A DNA stretch of 31,447 nucleotides from a virus, in IMG/VR virus record IMGVR_UViG_3300008113_000357, positions 1-31,447 of that record. The stretch is one strand, 5' to 3'. The notes beneath the pieces were generated by a model that saw only the letters and a program-made list of their open reading frames with translations, ran no database searches and had not been told where the DNA came from. The position numbers were made by a program, and so were the translations under genes. Each line of letters opens with the position of its first letter. The stretch's first letter is position 1. Positions 8,654-31,447 of the stretch are shown one piece after another.

Positions 8654-10773
8654 GTAATAAATCTACTCAACACTTCACCCAATGGTTGGGGATAGAGCAT
8701 AAGGTCCCTGTAATGCTGGAGAACCGCTCCGGCAAGTACATCACCTACGGCTTTGCGAACGAGTACCCCTACTACCTGCTTGACAACTATCGCAGGTCGT
8801 CAAAACACAACGCCATTGTCAACGGCAAAGTCAACTACATCATGGGCGGTGGCTGGCAGGCAGGCGACAACCTGACCGTTGAACAAGAGGCCCGGTTCAT
8901 CAAGTTTTTTGACGGAATGTCAAGCACCGAGGACTTGAACGACATCACCGAGAAACTGGTCCTTGACTTGGAGTTGTTCAACGGATTTGCGGTTGCGGTT
9001 ACTTGGTCGAAACTTGGGACCATCGCCAAGATGGAACACGTTCCCTTTGAGAAAATCAGGGTGGACAAGGAGGAGAAGATGTTTCAGGTCGCTGACTGGT
9101 ATAACGACGACATGATGCAACTCTTCCCCAAGGTGGGCGACATCGAGAAGATTCCTGCATTTGACCCGGAGAATCGCCTCGGAAAGCAGTTGTTCTACTA
9201 TCGGGTGTACGCAGCAGGCGTGAAGCACTATCCTTTGCCCGAATACATCGGTGGCAACGCTTGGATTGAGGCAGATGTGCAAGTCGCTAACTTCCACAAC
9301 AACAACCTCCGCAACAATTTTTGGGGCGGTTACTTGATAAACTTTAACAACGGAATCCCAACTCCTGAAGAGCAAGGCGACATTGAGCGTCAAATCAAAC
9401 GCAAGTTTTCGGGAACCGACAACGCTGGTCGCTTTGTGGTTACATTCAACGACGATGCAGCCAAGGCCCCGACTTTGGAACCGCTCACACCGTCTGACAT
9501 GGACAAGCAGTTCGAGATACTGAACAAAGCAATCCAACAAGAAATCTTTATCGCACACCGTGTAACCAACCCGATGCTATTCGGAGTAAAGACCGAAGGC
9601 CAATTGGGTGGACGCAACGAATTGGTTGAGGCCTACGAACTATTCAAGGCGACATATGTGAACGACCGGGTCCGCAAGGTGGAGCGGATGATTAACTACC
9701 TCGGCTCCTTCAATGGCGTGGAAGGGATGGAATTAATCCCGGTGGAGCCTATCACGGAGCGACTAAGCGAACAGGCTCTCTTGCAGATAATGACCCAAGA
9801 CGAATTGCGTGAAAAAGCAGGTCTGCAACCGCTTGAAAAGCCTGCCGATGTGGTTGGACCTAACCCCCAACCCGACGAGCAACCCCAAGCCGTGGAAGCC
9901 TTGCAGAGCAACGACAACATCAAGAAACTATCGGGCCGAGAGTATCAAAACCTGATGCGAATCGTCAGGCAGTATATGCAGGAGAAAATCACCCTTGAAA
10001 TGGCTCGGACCATGTTGTCAGCAGGGTTCGGTTTGTCTGCCCAAGAGATTGACACGATGCTCGGAGTGCAGTCCCAAGAGTTCAGCGAGCCTCAATGGGG
10101 CCAAGAGGACGACGAGGACTACGGATGGGGCGATGAGGAGTTCAAGGTCTTGGAGGTCGTTGCAAGCAAGTTCGGATGTCATGCCGACGACTACCACGTC
10201 ATGCACTCCAAGCCGATGCGGTTCGACACCAACATCGACGAAAACATACGGTTGGCCTTTGCCGAACTTGGCGAGGAGGAGAAAGAACTGGACAAGAAGA
10301 TTGAGGCCTATCGCAAGAAGAACCGGGACGCAAGCGTTGAAGAAATGGCAAAGGAGTTCGGGGTCAGCAAGGCCAAGGTTGCCAAGCGAGTCGCTTACCT
10401 AATCACAAAGGACCGCTATCCTATCAGCCGGGCGGTGGACAAGATTGCCGAGCAGAACCTACCCAAGGGCGTGAAGGAAGTTGCAGAGCCTGTACTGGAG
10501 GTCCGCTATAAATACGCATGGGCCACGGGTTTCAGCAACAAGGACAAAGGCTCCAGTCGTGAGTTCTGCAAGGTCATGCTTGACTTGGCTGGGCAGGGCA
10601 AGGTTTACACAAGGGAGGACATCGACGGGATTTCTGCAATCATGGGATATTCGGTATGGAATCGCAGAGGCGGTTGGTATCACACACCGAGCGGAGTGAA
10701 TCGCCCCCAATGCAGGCACGTGTGGGAGCAGCAGTTGGTCATCCGCAAAGGCAATAAAATCAGCAAGGCATGA
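8650..10773 (+). CDS. Portal protein with C-terminal extension containing a helix-turn-helix-like segment
   Basis: Residues 1 to about 400 have the character of a phage portal: an N-terminal region with YPYYLLDNYRRSSKHNAIVN, a central beta/alpha core, and IQQEIFIAHRVTNPMLFGV followed by the long stem helix NELVEAYELFKATYVNDRVR. Beyond about residue 425 the protein continues for 280 residues, unusually long. The extension includes an acidic linker, a helix-turn-helix-like segment (561-585, SVEEMAKEFGVSKAKVAKRV) and a C-terminal domain at 615-695 with Cys and His (QCRHVW at 687-692). The portal forms the dodecameric DNA gate of the capsid. The extension may be a tethered minor head protein or DNA-contact module; its function is unknown. 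Confidence 0.8.
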   Translation: MSNKSTQHFTQWLGIEHKVPVMLENRSGKYITYGFANEYPYYLLDNYRRSSKHNAIVNGKVNYIMGGGWQAGDNLTVEQEARFIKFFDGMSSTEDLNDITEKLVLDLELFNGFAVAVTWSKLGTIAKMEHVPFEKIRVDKEEKMFQVADWYNDDMMQLFPKVGDIEKIPAFDPENRLGKQLFYYRVYAAGVKHYPLPEYIGGNAWIEADVQVANFHNNNLRNNFWGGYLINFNNGIPTPEEQGDIERQIKRKFSGTDNAGRFVVTFNDDAAKAPTLEPLTPSDMDKQFEILNKAIQQEIFIAHRVTNPMLFGVKTEGQLGGRNELVEAYELFKATYVNDRVRKVERMINYLGSFNGVEGMELIPVEPITERLSEQALLQIMTQDELREKAGLQPLEKPADVVGPNPQPDEQPQAVEALQSNDNIKKLSGREYQNLMRIVRQYMQEKITLEMARTMLSAGFGLSAQEIDTMLGVQSQEFSEPQWGQEDDEDYGWGDEEFKVLEVVASKFGCHADDYHVMHSKPMRFDTNIDENIRLAFAELGEEEKELDKKIEAYRKKNRDASVEEMAKEFGVSKAKVAKRVAYLITKDRYPISRAVDKIAEQNLPKGVKEVAEPVLEVRYKYAWATGFSNKDKGSSREFCKVMLDLAGQGKVYTREDIDGISAIMGYSVWNRRGGWYHTPSGVNRPQCRHVWEQQLVIRKGNKISKA

Positions 10774-20539: not shown

Positions 20540-20862
20540 CACCCGAATACACCCTGCAAGCAGCCTGCGTCAAGTTGTTCAAACTCCTAAGGCCCCACGA
20601 AGAAGGACGGTTGTTCCTGAACCTTAACAACCCCCGAAGCCGAACGAACGGTCATTTTCTAAAGGGTATTGGCCTGACCGCTGGGGTTGCTGATATGACC
20701 TACCTATCGGACAAAGGGGCTATTTTCTTGGAGTTCAAGGCCGAGAAAGGCAAGCAGTCCCTCTCGCAGAAGTGGTGGCAGGGTGTGGTCCAAGATGCAG
20801 GCTACCGATACGAGGTAATCAGGAGCGTTGAGGATTTTCAAAGAATAATTACTCAACTATGA
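20536..20862 (+). CDS. VRR-NUC domain nuclease
   Basis: This 108-residue protein starts at ATG 20536 in the preceding stop (ATGA). It shows the VRR-NUC form of the PD-(D/E)xK fold: GLTAGVADMTYL (D53), LEFKAEKGKQS (E66-x-K68) and a downstream Q (about residue 78), ending in YRYEVIRSVEDFQRI. Stand-alone VRR-NUC proteins in phages are thought to resolve branched DNA during replication or before packaging. Length matches the compact viral form. It is translated with DnaB, which supports a role at replication or recombination intermediates. Confidence 0.85.
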   Translation: MTPEYTLQAACVKLFKLLRPHEEGRLFLNLNNPRSRTNGHFLKGIGLTAGVADMTYLSDKGAIFLEFKAEKGKQSLSQKWWQGVVQDAGYRYEVIRSVEDFQRIITQL

Positions 20863-21356
20863 TAATCATACAAATTTCAAACGAACAAAGGGCAAGAGCC
20901 AAGGAGTTGTACGAATTTAACGTTTTGAACAACTCAATCACAGAAGGGAAAAGCAACATTTACGGAGCGATTGGAGAAATAATTGTTTATGATTATTACA
21001 AAAACAAGGGTTTGGATATAAATAATAAAATTATAGGAGAGGATATATATCATTACGACTTAATTATTAGTGATTTTAAAGTTGATATAAAAACCAAAAA
21101 AACAACCGTTTATCCTGAAGAGCATTTTTTGTGCAGCATTTCAAATCATAATATCAACCAAGAATGCGATTTCTATTTTTTTGTTAGGGTGCTAAAGGAT
21201 ATGCAAATCGGGTTTTTGTTGGGCTATAAATCAAAAGAGGACTTTTTCAAAAACGCTAAATTCAATACAAAAGGAAGCACCGATATAAATGGGTGGGTTT
21301 TTAAGGGCGATTGCTGGAACCTTCAAGTCAAAGATTTAGATAAGTTAAAAAATTAG
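20859..21356 (+). CDS. Putative PD-(D/E)xK nuclease-like protein in an AT-rich island
   Basis: This 165-residue protein is much lower in GC than its neighbours: bases 21001-21060 contain 15 G+C of 60, against 34 of 60 at 20761-20820. The segment NIYGAIGEIIVYDYYKNKGL (E40), then HYDLII (D67), then VDIKTKKTTVY (D76-x-K78) fits the active-site order of PD-(D/E)xK endonucleases. It overlaps the VRR-NUC gene by four bases, yet its composition suggests recent acquisition. It may be a host-DNA degrading enzyme, a homing-type or restriction-like nuclease, or another defence-related protein. The fold assignment is moderately supported; specificity is unknown. Confidence 0.6.
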   Translation: MIIIQISNEQRARAKELYEFNVLNNSITEGKSNIYGAIGEIIVYDYYKNKGLDINNKIIGEDIYHYDLIISDFKVDIKTKKTTVYPEEHFLCSISNHNINQECDFYFFVRVLKDMQIGFLLGYKSKEDFFKNAKFNTKGSTDINGWVFKGDCWNLQVKDLDKLKN

Positions 21357-22116: not shown

Positions 22117-22416
22117 ATGGACCTAATCTCACGAACCATCCTCGGCTATACCGCAGAGGTCGTCGGAGTCAGCCCCGATGACATCTTGAGCGAAGTCAAG
22201 ACCCAAGAACTGGTCCTTGCTCGAAGCATCTTCGCAGACATCGCCTACTCGGAGTACCTCTACACCTACTGCCAAATCGGGCGTATCATCAAGAGGAACC
22301 ACGCAACGGTCATGCACAACCTCGAAATCCTTGCGATAAACATGAGAGCAAGGCCTGACATCAAATTCCTGCGTACACAGGTTCTCAACAGGACGAGAGA
22401 TTTTTTGCAACATTAG
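22117..22416 (+). CDS. DnaA domain IV-like DNA-binding protein
   Basis: This 99-residue protein resembles the C-terminal DnaA-box-binding domain. A first helix region (ILGYTAEVVGVSPDDILSEV) is followed by ELVLARSIFADIAYSEYLYT, CQIGRIIKRNHATVMHNLEI. The NHATVMHNLE segment corresponds to the D-H-T-T-V-x-H-A signature of DnaA domain IV. There is no AAA+ domain. It may compete with host DnaA for its boxes, or help phage initiation together with the DnaD-like protein. It is the last gene of the early region; the sigma-like gene follows 26 bases later. Confidence 0.75.
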   Translation: MDLISRTILGYTAEVVGVSPDDILSEVKTQELVLARSIFADIAYSEYLYTYCQIGRIIKRNHATVMHNLEILAINMRARPDIKFLRTQVLNRTRDFLQH

Positions 22417-23950: not shown

Positions 23951-24091
23951 ATGGATTCGCTGATGATGGTCATTACGACCCTGTGCGACTGCATCGGAGC
24001 GGTGGACGATTCCAATGCTCCGAACCAGTACGAAGTGAAAATGAAAATCGTAAACAAGATAAGCGACCTAATAGACAAAATCGAATACTAA
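23951..24091 (+). CDS. Hypothetical 46-residue protein before the small terminase
   Basis: The frame MDSLMMVITTLCDCIGAVDD ... IVNKISDLIDKIEY ends TAA at 24089-24091 and shares one base with the terminase start (TAATG). It is helical. The start is uncertain: GTG 23939 would add four residues, and the frame stays open further upstream into the previous gene. Tight coupling with the terminase suggests co-expression. The function is unknown. Confidence 0.5.
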   Translation: MDSLMMVITTLCDCIGAVDDSNAPNQYEVKMKIVNKISDLIDKIEY

Positions 24092-24504
24092 TGGCAGGCC
24101 GACCCCCAATTTGGAATACGCCCGAAGAACTATGGGCTGCGTTTGAGCAATACCGAGCCGAGAACAAGGCCAACCCTTACCGGGTGCAGGACTATGTCGG
24201 CAAGGATGGGGTCATGGTTTACCGGGACAAGGAGCGTCCGATTACCTTTCGGGGCTTTGAGGGATACCTCGCAGAGAACGGGGTTTGCTATAATCTATCG
24301 CAGTATCAAAAGGGAGATAGCGACCATCACAAGCAATTCTTACCCATCATCACACGCATAAGGCTGACCTGCGACAAGGATATGCTGGAGGGTTCAAGTG
24401 CCGGGGTTTACTCGGCCAACATCGCCTCTCGTCTGCTTGGCTTGGTTGACAAGCAGGAGAACACGGTTCATATTGAGCAACCCCTATTCCCCGACAATGG
24501 CTGA
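24091..24504 (+). CDS. terS: Terminase small subunit
   Basis: This 137-residue protein starts MAGRPPIWNTPEELWAAFEQ, the typical opening of Bacteroidota small terminases. The PITFRGFEGYLAENGVCYNL segment corresponds to a helix-turn-helix used to recognise phage DNA, followed by a helical oligomerisation region and YSANIASRLLGLVDKQENTV, the usual end before the acidic tail. It overlaps the preceding gene by one base and lies 19 bases before the large subunit. It selects the DNA for packaging and stimulates the motor ATPase. It was chosen over a longer frame from 23983 because the N-terminus from 24091 fits the family. Confidence 0.85.
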   Translation: MAGRPPIWNTPEELWAAFEQYRAENKANPYRVQDYVGKDGVMVYRDKERPITFRGFEGYLAENGVCYNLSQYQKGDSDHHKQFLPIITRIRLTCDKDMLEGSSAGVYSANIASRLLGLVDKQENTVHIEQPLFPDNG

Positions 24505-24523: not shown

Positions 24524-25734
24524 ATGGACTTTAGATTAACTACGGCCATCAAAAAGATTAGGCGGATGCAAGCCCGGAAGAAGGTAATTCAGGGCGGGAC
24601 ATCTGCCGGAGGTTAACCCCCGCTCGGCAACGGGTGGGGGTAGGAAAAACGCTCGCCATCCTTGCGGTTCTCATCGACATCGCAGCAAAGAAGAAGACCG
24701 AGATTTCGGTAGTTTCCGAATCCATCCCTCACCTACGAAGGGGTGCAATCAAGGACTTCGCCAAGGTCATGCAATGGACAGGCCGATGGGTCGCAGACCG
24801 ATGGAACAAGACTCTGCTGACTTACAACTTCGCAAACGGCTCGGTCATCGAGTTCTTTTCTGCTGATTCCGAGGCACGGCTCCGAGGTGCAAGGAGGCAG
24901 GTCGTTTACATCAACGAGGCGAACAATATCGACTTTGAGTCCTACTACCAACTTGCCATCCGTACCAGCGAGGCCATCTACATCGACTTTAACCCGACTC
25001 ACGAATTTTGGGCGCATACGGAGGTTCTTCATGAGGATGATTCCGAACTGATAATCCTAACCTACAACGACAACGAGGCCCTGCCCGATACCATCAAGCG
25101 GGATATCGAACTGAACCGCACCAAAGCCGAAACATCTGCCTATTGGGCGAACTGGTGGAAGGTTTACGGCCTTGGTCAGGTCGGGACGCTCCAAGGTGCG
25201 ATATACGAGGACTTTGAGGTCGTGGAGGGTATCGATGTCAGTCGAGCGAAATTCGTCGCCCTTGGGCTTGACTGGGGCTTCAGCAACGACCCTACGGCCT
25301 TGGTCGCTATATACCGTCAAGGGGACTGCCTGCTGATTCAGGAACTGCTCTACTCCACGGGCCTCACGAACCAAGACATCGCAGACAAGTTGCGGTCCTT
25401 GGGTATTACCCGGGCTTGGGAGATAGTTGCGGACTCAGCAGAACCGAAGTCCATCGAAGAAATCTACCGATTGGGATTCAACATCAAGCCAGCAGAGAAA
25501 GGTCCCGACTCGGTTCGGAACGGGATAGACATTCTCAAAAGGTTCAAATTGCAGGTTACCAAGGATAGTACCAACCTTATCAAAGAACTGCGGTCCTACA
25601 CTTGGGCTACCGACAAGGAGGGCAAGAACACGGGGGTCCCGATTGATTCGTTCAACCACGCCTGCGATGCGATGCGGTATGTGGCCCTTAACAAGTTACG
25701 GGTCAGTAACTCAGGGAAGTACGTTGTTGTTTAA
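24524..25734 (+). CDS. terL: Terminase large subunit, interrupted in Walker A; candidate translational bypass
   Basis: The gene reads in two frames. From ATG 24524 it encodes 30 residues ending VIQGGTSAGG and stops at TAA 24614-24616. From 24643 it continues in another frame as GKTLAILAVLIDIAA to 25734. Joining GGA 24608-24610 to GGA 24643-24645 gives GGTSAGKT, a perfect Walker A, and a 391-residue protein of normal length. Later motifs are intact: VVYINEAN (Walker B with catalytic Glu), IYIDFNPTHEFW, the nuclease motifs LGLDWGFSNDPTA and IVADSAEPKS, and FNHACDAMRYV. It is a Terminase_3/PBSX-type packaging motor. A gene caller would show only a GTG-started frame at 24634, which lacks half of the ATP site. 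Confidence 0.85.
24611..24645 (+). other. 35-nt hairpin insertion in terL Walker A (bypass or mobile-hairpin candidate)
   Basis: The insert starts GGTTAA (in-frame stop at 24614), then forms a 10-bp stem, 24617-24626 with 24631-24640, around the GNRA-type loop GCAA; A24616-T24641 adds an eleventh pair. It ends TAG then GGA at 24643-24645, repeating the GGA codon before it. Its length is not a multiple of three. A G-rich run lies a few bases upstream of the second GGA. These are the elements of T4 gene 60 bypassing. Confidence 0.75.
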
Positions 25735-30693: not shown

Positions 30694-31447
30694 GCGTAAC
30701 CCTCATCGCCTACCCGACCGCTGACTACACCACCGACTTGCAGGCTTGGAATGCGTTCAACGACCGAGCCGATGCCGATGGTGCTACAAGCCGGGAGGAC
30801 GCTTGCTACGGCTGCCTGTTCTCAACCTTTGCTTCCCTTTACGACCAACCCGAACTCGCTTATGTCCTTGACACCATGGGCGGCACGGATATCGCCATCA
30901 CGTTCAGCATCGATGACATCAACGATATTACCAAGCGGAGGGGGTCGTTCTCCAAGACGATAGAGTTGCCTAATACGACAACCAACGCAAGCCTGTTCAA
31001 GTTTGCCTACAACGTGCAGTCCTTCGTCGGTGGATTCCAACCGAACAAGAAGATTCGTGCTGCGATGTGGGAGGATGGGGTCCAAGTGTTCAGCGGTGCG
31101 ATGCAGTTGTTGTCCATGAGCAAGACCAAGGGCGAAATAACTTACGAGGTCGGGATGTTCAGCGAAGATGTGAGCCTATTCCAAGACATCCAAAACAACC
31201 TGCTCGTCAACACGGCTGGCGTTACCGGGATGAATCACACGCTGACCTCTGCCCACGTTTCTGCAACTTGGACCGCATCGGGTGCGAGCGGTTACGTTTA
31301 CGGCTTGGTGGATTCCTACGGAGCCACGGACGTGGTTACGCAGGGATGGTTTGCGGTTCCTTACTGGAAGATGGGGCCGTCCATTTACGTCAAGAAGATG
31401 GTGGATTTAATCTTCGCACAGGCAGGGTATCGGTACTCTTCCAACTT
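30690..31447 (+). CDS. Phage tail protein, 5' part, cut by the window end
   Basis: The frame from ATG 30690 has no stop before the end of the window. Residues 20-51 hold W..FN.RA.ADGAT..E.A..GCLF..FA..Y, shared with the 56-residue protein at 12202. SFSKTIELPNTTTNASLFKF follows at about residues 87-106. From 30988 the DNA repeats the window start at about 92% identity, so the gene continues as the fragment at 3-2063. Joined, it is about 779 residues. Upstream it overlaps the preceding tail protein by four bases. It precedes the tape measure in a circular map, so a tail-tip role is likely. Confidence 0.8.
   Translation, partial: MSVTLIAYPTADYTTDLQAWNAFNDRADADGATSREDACYGCLFSTFASLYDQPELAYVLDTMGGTDIAITFSIDDINDITKRRGSFSKTIELPNTTTNASLFKFAYNVQSFVGGFQPNKKIRAAMWEDGVQVFSGAMQLLSMSKTKGEITYEVGMFSEDVSLFQDIQNNLLVNTAGVTGMNHTLTSAHVSATWTASGASGYVYGLVDSYGATDVVTQGWFAVPYWKMGPSIYVKKMVDLIFAQAGYRYSSN
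30988..31447. repeat. Right copy of imperfect terminal overlap
   Basis: This is the partner of 1-460. The alignment has no gaps and 38 mismatches in 460 bases, most of them silent in the tail gene. It marks the probable joining point of a circular or permuted genome of about 30,987 bp. Confidence 0.85.

Follow-up and report, generated by a model that had tools for sequence, protein, structure and literature searches.

Hairpin-bearing inserts in the Walker A motif of phage large terminase genes as probable cassettes for programmed translational bypassing

The window, that is, the whole 31,447-nt stretch of viral DNA analysed here (IMG/VR record IMGVR_UViG_3300008113_000357), contains a gene of the terminase large subunit (terL), which is divided exactly in its Walker A motif (P-loop) by a short hairpin-bearing insert (Table 1). 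The translation of the first part (ORF1) up to the GGA codon at 24608–24610 is MDFRLTTAIKKIRRMQARKKVIQGGTSAG, with the C-terminal end ...KKVIQGGTSAG, and this codon is followed by GGT and by the stop codon TAA (24614–24616). The gene continues in a different frame from a second GGA (24643–24645) as GKTLAIL and ends at 25734, the distance between the two GGA codons being 35 nt (mod 3 = 2). The product of the second part (ORF2) matched Terminase_3C (E 1e-17) and Terminase_3, while in an uninterrupted close relative the N-terminal half including Walker A is aligned with the Sf6 terminase and the C-terminal domain with the SPP1 terminase. Thus the split of terL by a 35-nt hairpin insert, claimed in a preliminary description made from the letters of the window alone, was confirmed by direct observation of both ORFs, both GGA codons, the stem and the GCAA loop.

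In the window the hairpin is closed by an additional A24616–T24641 pair, and no repeats were found at the insert site in a repeat search. The preliminary description limited the feature to this hairpin insert; this part stands, while the real feature is larger and adds a conserved stem-loop inside ORF1, in which the lower stem is formed by GGCGGATG (24561–24568) and CATCTGCC (24600–24607) and the upper stem by GCCC/GGGC.

Table 1. Features of the interrupted terL locus (positions in the window)
Feature	Position	Strand	Remarks
Terminase small subunit gene (terS)	23983..24504	+	immediately 5' of terL
ORF1, 29 opening codons of terL	24524..24610	+	ATG at 24524; last codon is the putative take-off GGA; encodes Walker A part GGTSAG
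5' stem-loop inside coding sequence	24561..24607	+	directly abuts the putative take-off codon; missing from uninterrupted homologues
Putative take-off codon GGA (Gly)	24608..24610	+	
6-nt spacer (sense codon GGT and stop TAA)	24611..24616	+	6-nt spacing identical across 11/11 types
Hairpin	24617..24640	+	10-bp stem 24617–24626/24631–24640; GCAA loop 24627–24630
3' spacer TA	24641..24642	+	1–10 nt between types
Putative landing codon GGA	24643..24645	+	next codon to be decoded would be AAA 24646
ORF2, remaining terL (KTLAIL...)	24646..25734	+	rest of ATPase and RNase H-like nuclease domain

Some other observations concern the remaining part of the window. Its ends (1–460 and 30988–31447) share 91.7% identity across 460 nt, which looks like the assembly, from a mixture of strains, of a ~31.0-kb genome that is circular or terminally redundant, and one related insert-bearing contig has a length of 31,024 nt. 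The 22117–22416 region encodes a small protein of 99 amino acids consisting mostly of the DnaA C-terminal DNA-binding domain (Bac_DnaA_C). No Pfam nuclease is present beside terL in the window, where terS adjoins it; other phages were not covered in this respect. The ORF at 20859–21356 (165 amino acids, no Pfam or PHROG match) has a PD-(D/E)XK-like pattern (E...D...DIKTK) recognized by eye; considered as a possible homing nuclease upstream of terL, this ORF is not diagnostic, because its homologues are located near both interrupted and uninterrupted terL genes.

The exact 32-nt core of the window insert was found in 16 other IMG/VR stretches, and a looser pattern added two more (contigs L211 and L212), in which the sense codon of the spacer is GGC instead of GGT; hence the window insert, designated as type T1, is present in 18 other contigs from ~16 metagenomes. 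Most of the 80 closest terL loci possess an uninterrupted GGTSAGKT and the remainder carry the identical insert at the identical codon, so copies with and without the insert both exist, as the metagenome search proposed in the preliminary description was meant to reveal, and uninterrupted sister genes co-circulate with interrupted ones. Since the identical insert recurs at the same codon in IMG/VR contigs of many metagenomes, it is not an assembly artefact.

An initial loose DNA pattern returned chiefly unrelated matches. A degenerate scan for GG-T-S-A-G ... G-K-T with 18–48 extra bases resulted in 93 stretches, almost all of the same gene, with seven sequence types; T8 came from later scans, T9 and T10 from a search with the T5 terminase protein as query, in which no insert was demanded, and T11 from a gene-independent hairpin pattern. 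Altogether at least 11 insert types were identified in ~106 contigs (an approximate count of insert-bearing contigs with the window excluded), of which 10 types interrupt Walker A of one Terminase_3-type TerL family, while T11 interrupts the P-loop of a TerL without detectable BLAST similarity to that of the window. It should be taken into account that the per-type counts are affected by the search design, T1–T8 and T11 having been detected with patterns, that the types are not all independent and several of them probably share descent, and that every insert-bearing sequence comes from metagenomes.

The insert was not found in any isolate, and a search of genome contigs revealed no close relative; 395 Bacteroidota genomes contained no interrupted TSA-type site, and the generic hairpin pattern had no match in 247 Bacteroidota genomes. 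The nearest cultured phages are Flavobacterium phages FPSV-S2, FpV9, and 11b, Phocaeicola phage BV200P1, and Cellulophaga phage phi10:1, all with uninterrupted P-loops. When the hairpin was searched for in other genes, as the preliminary description had suggested, a signature search of 2.7 Mb of contigs and the gene-independent IMG/VR scan gave only chance matches outside terL P-loops. Among the results of the various scans, contigs L210, L243, L267, L272, L279, L386, L387, L389, and L392–L394 were judged to be chance matches. Within the sequences searched, the insert therefore does not appear to meet the criterion for a dispersed MITE-like mobile element, namely, copies in other genes.

The layout is common to all types: a 5' stem-loop, a take-off codon, 6 nt, a hairpin, 1–10 nt, and a landing codon. 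The gap from take-off to landing is 35 nt in T1, 32 in T2, 36 in T3 and T4, 37 in T5 and T8, 39 in T6, 44 in T7, 40 in T9, 42 in T10, and 41 in T11, so that it ranges from 32 to 44 nt with all three frame classes represented. Every type contains an in-frame stop and is followed by intact terminase sequence, the downstream frame being open to the TerL C-terminus wherever the contig reaches the gene end (~356–371 codons; 411 in T11).

A match of the take-off and landing residues is established in 11/11 types, being Gly in T1–T8 and T11 and Ala in T9 and T10, where the hairpin sits one codon earlier. The codon pairs are GGA/GGA (four types), GGG/GGA (two), GGT/GGA (two), GGA/GGT, GCC/GCA, and GCT/GCA; consequently the first two letters agree in all 11 types and full codon identity is restricted to T1–T4. 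The stem core starts exactly 6 nt past the take-off codon in 11/11 types, with one further pair possible on the 5' side of the stem in T1 and several others, while on the 3' side the spacing up to the landing codon is variable, as expected if a ribosome measures the 5' side only. The second spacer codon is a stop in 9/11 types, and in T2 and T9 the stops are located further inside the insert; the patterns that found T8 and T11 demanded a stop codon, and without that demand the proportion is 7/9.

These stops and frames bear directly on conventional recoding, according to which a −1/+1 frameshift or stop readthrough would produce a P-loop enlarged by ~11–14 residues. For some types this can be imagined, since the landing frame of T1, T2, and T9 is open back beyond the ORF1 stop and T3 and T10 require readthrough of just one stop; however, T4 requires three stops to be read through and T6 two, while in T5, T7, T8, and T11 the landing frame contains blocking stops, so that 6/11 types cannot be joined by one frameshift or one-stop readthrough. 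Furthermore, a separate event would be needed for each type, one frameshift cannot fit all three frame classes, and the added residues would break the Walker A spacing, which is invariant in all uninterrupted homologues. Recoding of this kind is thus very improbable, and the −1 frameshift offered in the preliminary description as an alternative is unable to account for the whole insert family.

Termination at the ORF1 stop with re-initiation near the landing codon would yield a TerL without its first strand and with only half of the P-loop. In T1 a GTG located in frame three codons ahead of the landing codon is compatible with this scheme, which is nevertheless scarcely tenable: there is no common start codon near landing (none exists in the landing frame of T5, T6, T7, T9, and T10), the matched codons and the 5' stem-loop are left unexplained, and an incomplete Walker A would be non-functional.

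The hairpin itself has a stem of 7–10 bp, C-rich on the 5' side and G-rich on the 3' side, and a GNRA loop in T1, T3, T4, T8, T9, and T11. Compensatory changes are evident: in five variants of the same length 100% of cells are paired with 6/10 pairs altered on both sides, the covariation score is reached by 0/500 shuffles, and within T9 and T10 the changes are confined to the loop, the spacer, and compensated stem positions.

Folding revealed a long stem-loop in ORF1 of interrupted genes, the 3' arm of which ends right before the take-off codon. The stability of the 66-nt flank exceeds that of 1000 synonymous recodings in 11/11 types (z from −1.8 to −7.3, p ≤ 0.045; z −4.2 for the commonest T1 flank), compared with a mean z of −0.18 in uninterrupted genes (n = 30 sequences). 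Among the types with a common register the proportion of paired cells is 98.8%, compared to 43.6% for uninterrupted genes and 34–47% after sliding of the partner, and four compensatory cells at two pairs were reached by 1/500 shuffles; T6, T7, T9, T10, and T11 possess an analogous stem in other registers, and in T5 it is weaker. Serine is encoded by TCN in the interrupted genes of the GGTSAGKT family, and the 5' stem-loop may be the reason for this; several scans required TCN, which makes this preference only partly independent evidence. In three uninterrupted relatives of T9 (L327, L328, and L335) the 5' flank contains another long complementarity (GTATTCGTG/CACGAATGC), which may be either chance or a relic of a lost cassette.

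The insert and this flank are transferred together. In the tree of the downstream protein T1, T9, and T10 alleles are intermixed with uninterrupted ones, some of them being identical in the downstream protein compared, and T2 falls into two separate clades. Over the 90 nt upstream of the insert the divergence between T1 and uninterrupted alleles is 0.25–0.38 versus 0.02–0.23 within groups, and almost immediately 3' of the insert it drops to the within-group level. Therefore the insert moves with ~65–80 nt of its 5' flank, that is, the part containing the 5' stem-loop, and recombination is free on the downstream side. In one contig (L268, ~9514–9568) the 5' flank next to a T2 insert (ACGACCGCCATCAAGAAGATTCGGGCG...) does not resemble that of the other T2 genes, and the terminase is truncated by the contig end; this is possibly a recombinant between alleles.

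Codon-level comparison demonstrates selection on both halves of terL, with strong purifying selection downstream across three frames: downstream dN/dS was 0.036 in T1, 0.025 in T9, 0.051 in T10, and 0.106 in T3, and was considered unusable for T2 and for the pooled uninterrupted genes because of mixed lengths and clades and the lack of a codon alignment. The conservation of the insert was also established. Variable sites in it number 1/35 in T1 and 0/36 in T3, whereas 106/139 (T1) and 82/93 (T3) four-fold sites vary downstream; due to recombination the downstream sites compared are only incompletely linked to the insert, and in the linked 5' flank of T3 pairs still differ by ~2.7 synonymous changes per 20 codons, the T3 insert being invariant.

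It can be supposed that the insert merely inactivates terL, and the genomes are defective, carry a decoy allele, or use a second terminase, in favour of which there are co-circulating uninterrupted alleles with near-identical downstream sequence. This is hardly credible in view of the purifying selection downstream in three frames and of RNA structures conserved with compensatory changes; in addition, a second intact terL, a finding that would have refuted the bypass reading of the preliminary description, was not found among the window ORFs examined. Both a defective variant and a recent one-off insertion, which that description had also admitted, are contradicted by the comparative evidence.

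As frameshifting, readthrough, and re-initiation fail, skipping of the gap remains, either by the ribosome or through removal of the RNA. In the latter case the insert would be excised from mRNA (as a mini-intron or by protein-catalysed RNA excision) and the ribosome would read a continuous terL message. The two flanking stem-loops, the fact that exact excision restores the frame in all types, and the location of the signals at the RNA level agree with this, and a structured RNA removed before translation would leave nearly the same comparative record, which counts against bypassing. Nevertheless excision, although the principal competitor of bypassing, seems unlikely: no described RNA family or group I or II intron was matched in the window by Rfam, 32–44 nt is, to our knowledge, far below the size of known self-splicing introns, splicing requires neither a spacing fixed on the 5' side only nor matched take-off and landing residues, and the 5' stem-loop lies in translated sequence, consistent with a T4-like motor. 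If true, it would represent a new class of 32–44-nt mini-introns with hairpin-defined ends in phage terminase genes.

The ribosome is favoured because the hairpin distance is fixed relative to the take-off codon only, because the landing residue tracks the take-off residue, Gly or Ala, and because the parts match those of T4 gene 60. According to these facts the insert is, with a probability of about 0.85, a programmed translational bypass cassette of the T4 gene 60 kind. This reading, already advanced in the preliminary description, passed all comparative tests run and was reinforced by the diversity of insert types in three frame classes, the covarying Gly/Gly or Ala/Ala pairs, a covarying hairpin at a constant 6-nt distance, and a 5' stem-loop that also covaries and that only interrupted genes possess. 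Bypassing itself, as opposed to skipping at the RNA level, is inferred in the absence of peptide, ribosome-profiling, or other protein or RNA data.

The order of events can likewise only be inferred, by analogy with T4 gene 60. Ribosomes would translate ORF1 as far as GGA 24608, where the hairpin 6 nt downstream would disturb the A site and the stop one codon on would end those ribosomes that decode forward. Peptidyl-tRNA-Gly may then detach from GGA and the mRNA slide, with the 5' stem-loop refolding behind the ribosome and pulling it along, until pairing of the tRNA is restored at the landing GGA (24643); the predicted product is a 391-residue terminase with an intact GGTSAGKT loop. Several facts count against bypassing, namely, the third-letter mismatches between take-off and landing codons (GGG/GGA, GGT/GGA, GGA/GGT, GCC/GCA, and GCT/GCA), the ordinary sense codon in the A site after take-off, and the lack of a second-codon stop in T2 and T9. 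An insert-specific nascent peptide was not found either: the basic peptide KKIRRMQARKK, which the preliminary description listed among the elements shared with T4 gene 60, is not specific to interrupted genes and has similar counterparts at the N-terminus of uninterrupted relatives (e.g., AISRIRRMTARKKVIQ).

So far programmed bypassing is represented chiefly by one well-studied gene, T4 gene 60, together with yeast mitochondria. The ~106 phage contigs provide at least 11 natural variants, for which uninterrupted sister genes can serve as controls, so that the requirements of ribosome jumping (codon match, hairpin spacing, and the 5' stem-loop motor) become testable by comparison and reporters; in addition, the variants indicate that an essential gene is probably decoded by bypassing in relatives of known Bacteroidota phages. 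The cassette is compact (~65–80 nt of 5' flank and the insert), is swapped by recombination, and occurs at the P-loop of two terminases dissimilar in sequence; gene-calling programs restricted to a single frame would annotate such interrupted terminases as truncated. In the open-access literature, with subscription papers and preprints outside the scope, no description of this insert family was found.

In T4 gene 60 matched GGA codons mark take-off and landing over a 50-nt gap, a stem-loop forms in the A site, and a 5' stem-loop refolds behind the sliding ribosome (PMC5009743, PMC11194080). The terL inserts share with it the Gly GGA take-off and landing (identical in T1–T4), a stop near take-off, a stem-loop just 3' of take-off, a frame-changing gap, the location in an essential phage enzyme gene, and a 5' stem-loop upstream of take-off. 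At the same time their gap is only 32–44 nt long with many sequence types, Ala serves for take-off in two types, the stop lies one codon later whereas in gene 60 it adjoins take-off, and the stem starts 6 nt after the take-off codon, which in gene 60 is included in the stem. Gene 60 also has the stimulatory nascent peptide KKYK ~30 residues from the P site, while no nascent-peptide signal was identified for the terL inserts, which moreover are located inside the terminase Walker A. Protection against a homing endonuclease has been reported as a possible role of the T4 insert (PMC5009743); by analogy such a role is conceivable for the terL insert, the difference being that no homing endonuclease was found adjoining terL of the window.

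In Magnusiomyces capitatus mitochondria short frame-breaking blocks (byps) are skipped in translation at 81 dispersed sites, reportedly largely independent of mRNA context (PMC5009743), in contrast to the terL inserts, which are located at one motif, in phages, and with conserved hairpins. Bypass decoding was proposed, and is reported as likely (PMC5009743, citing its ref. 161), for the terminase of Streptomyces phage Hau3; a terminase gene is concerned in both cases, and the Hau3 proposal differs in being tied to UUA codon decoding in Streptomyces. For the adhesin gene of Prevotella loescheii (Bacteroidota) a 29-nt hop was proposed, which was hard to reproduce in E. coli and had no follow-up (PMC5009743); like the terL gaps it is short, and its phylum is that of the hosts of the nearest cultured relatives. 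Finally, mycobacteriophage TerL P-loop inteins (TerL1-a/b) also target Walker A (PMC5050341). Unlike these in-frame protein elements the terL inserts carry in-frame stops and encode no protein; since both are found in the same motif, Walker A of the large terminase is a recurrent target of inserts.
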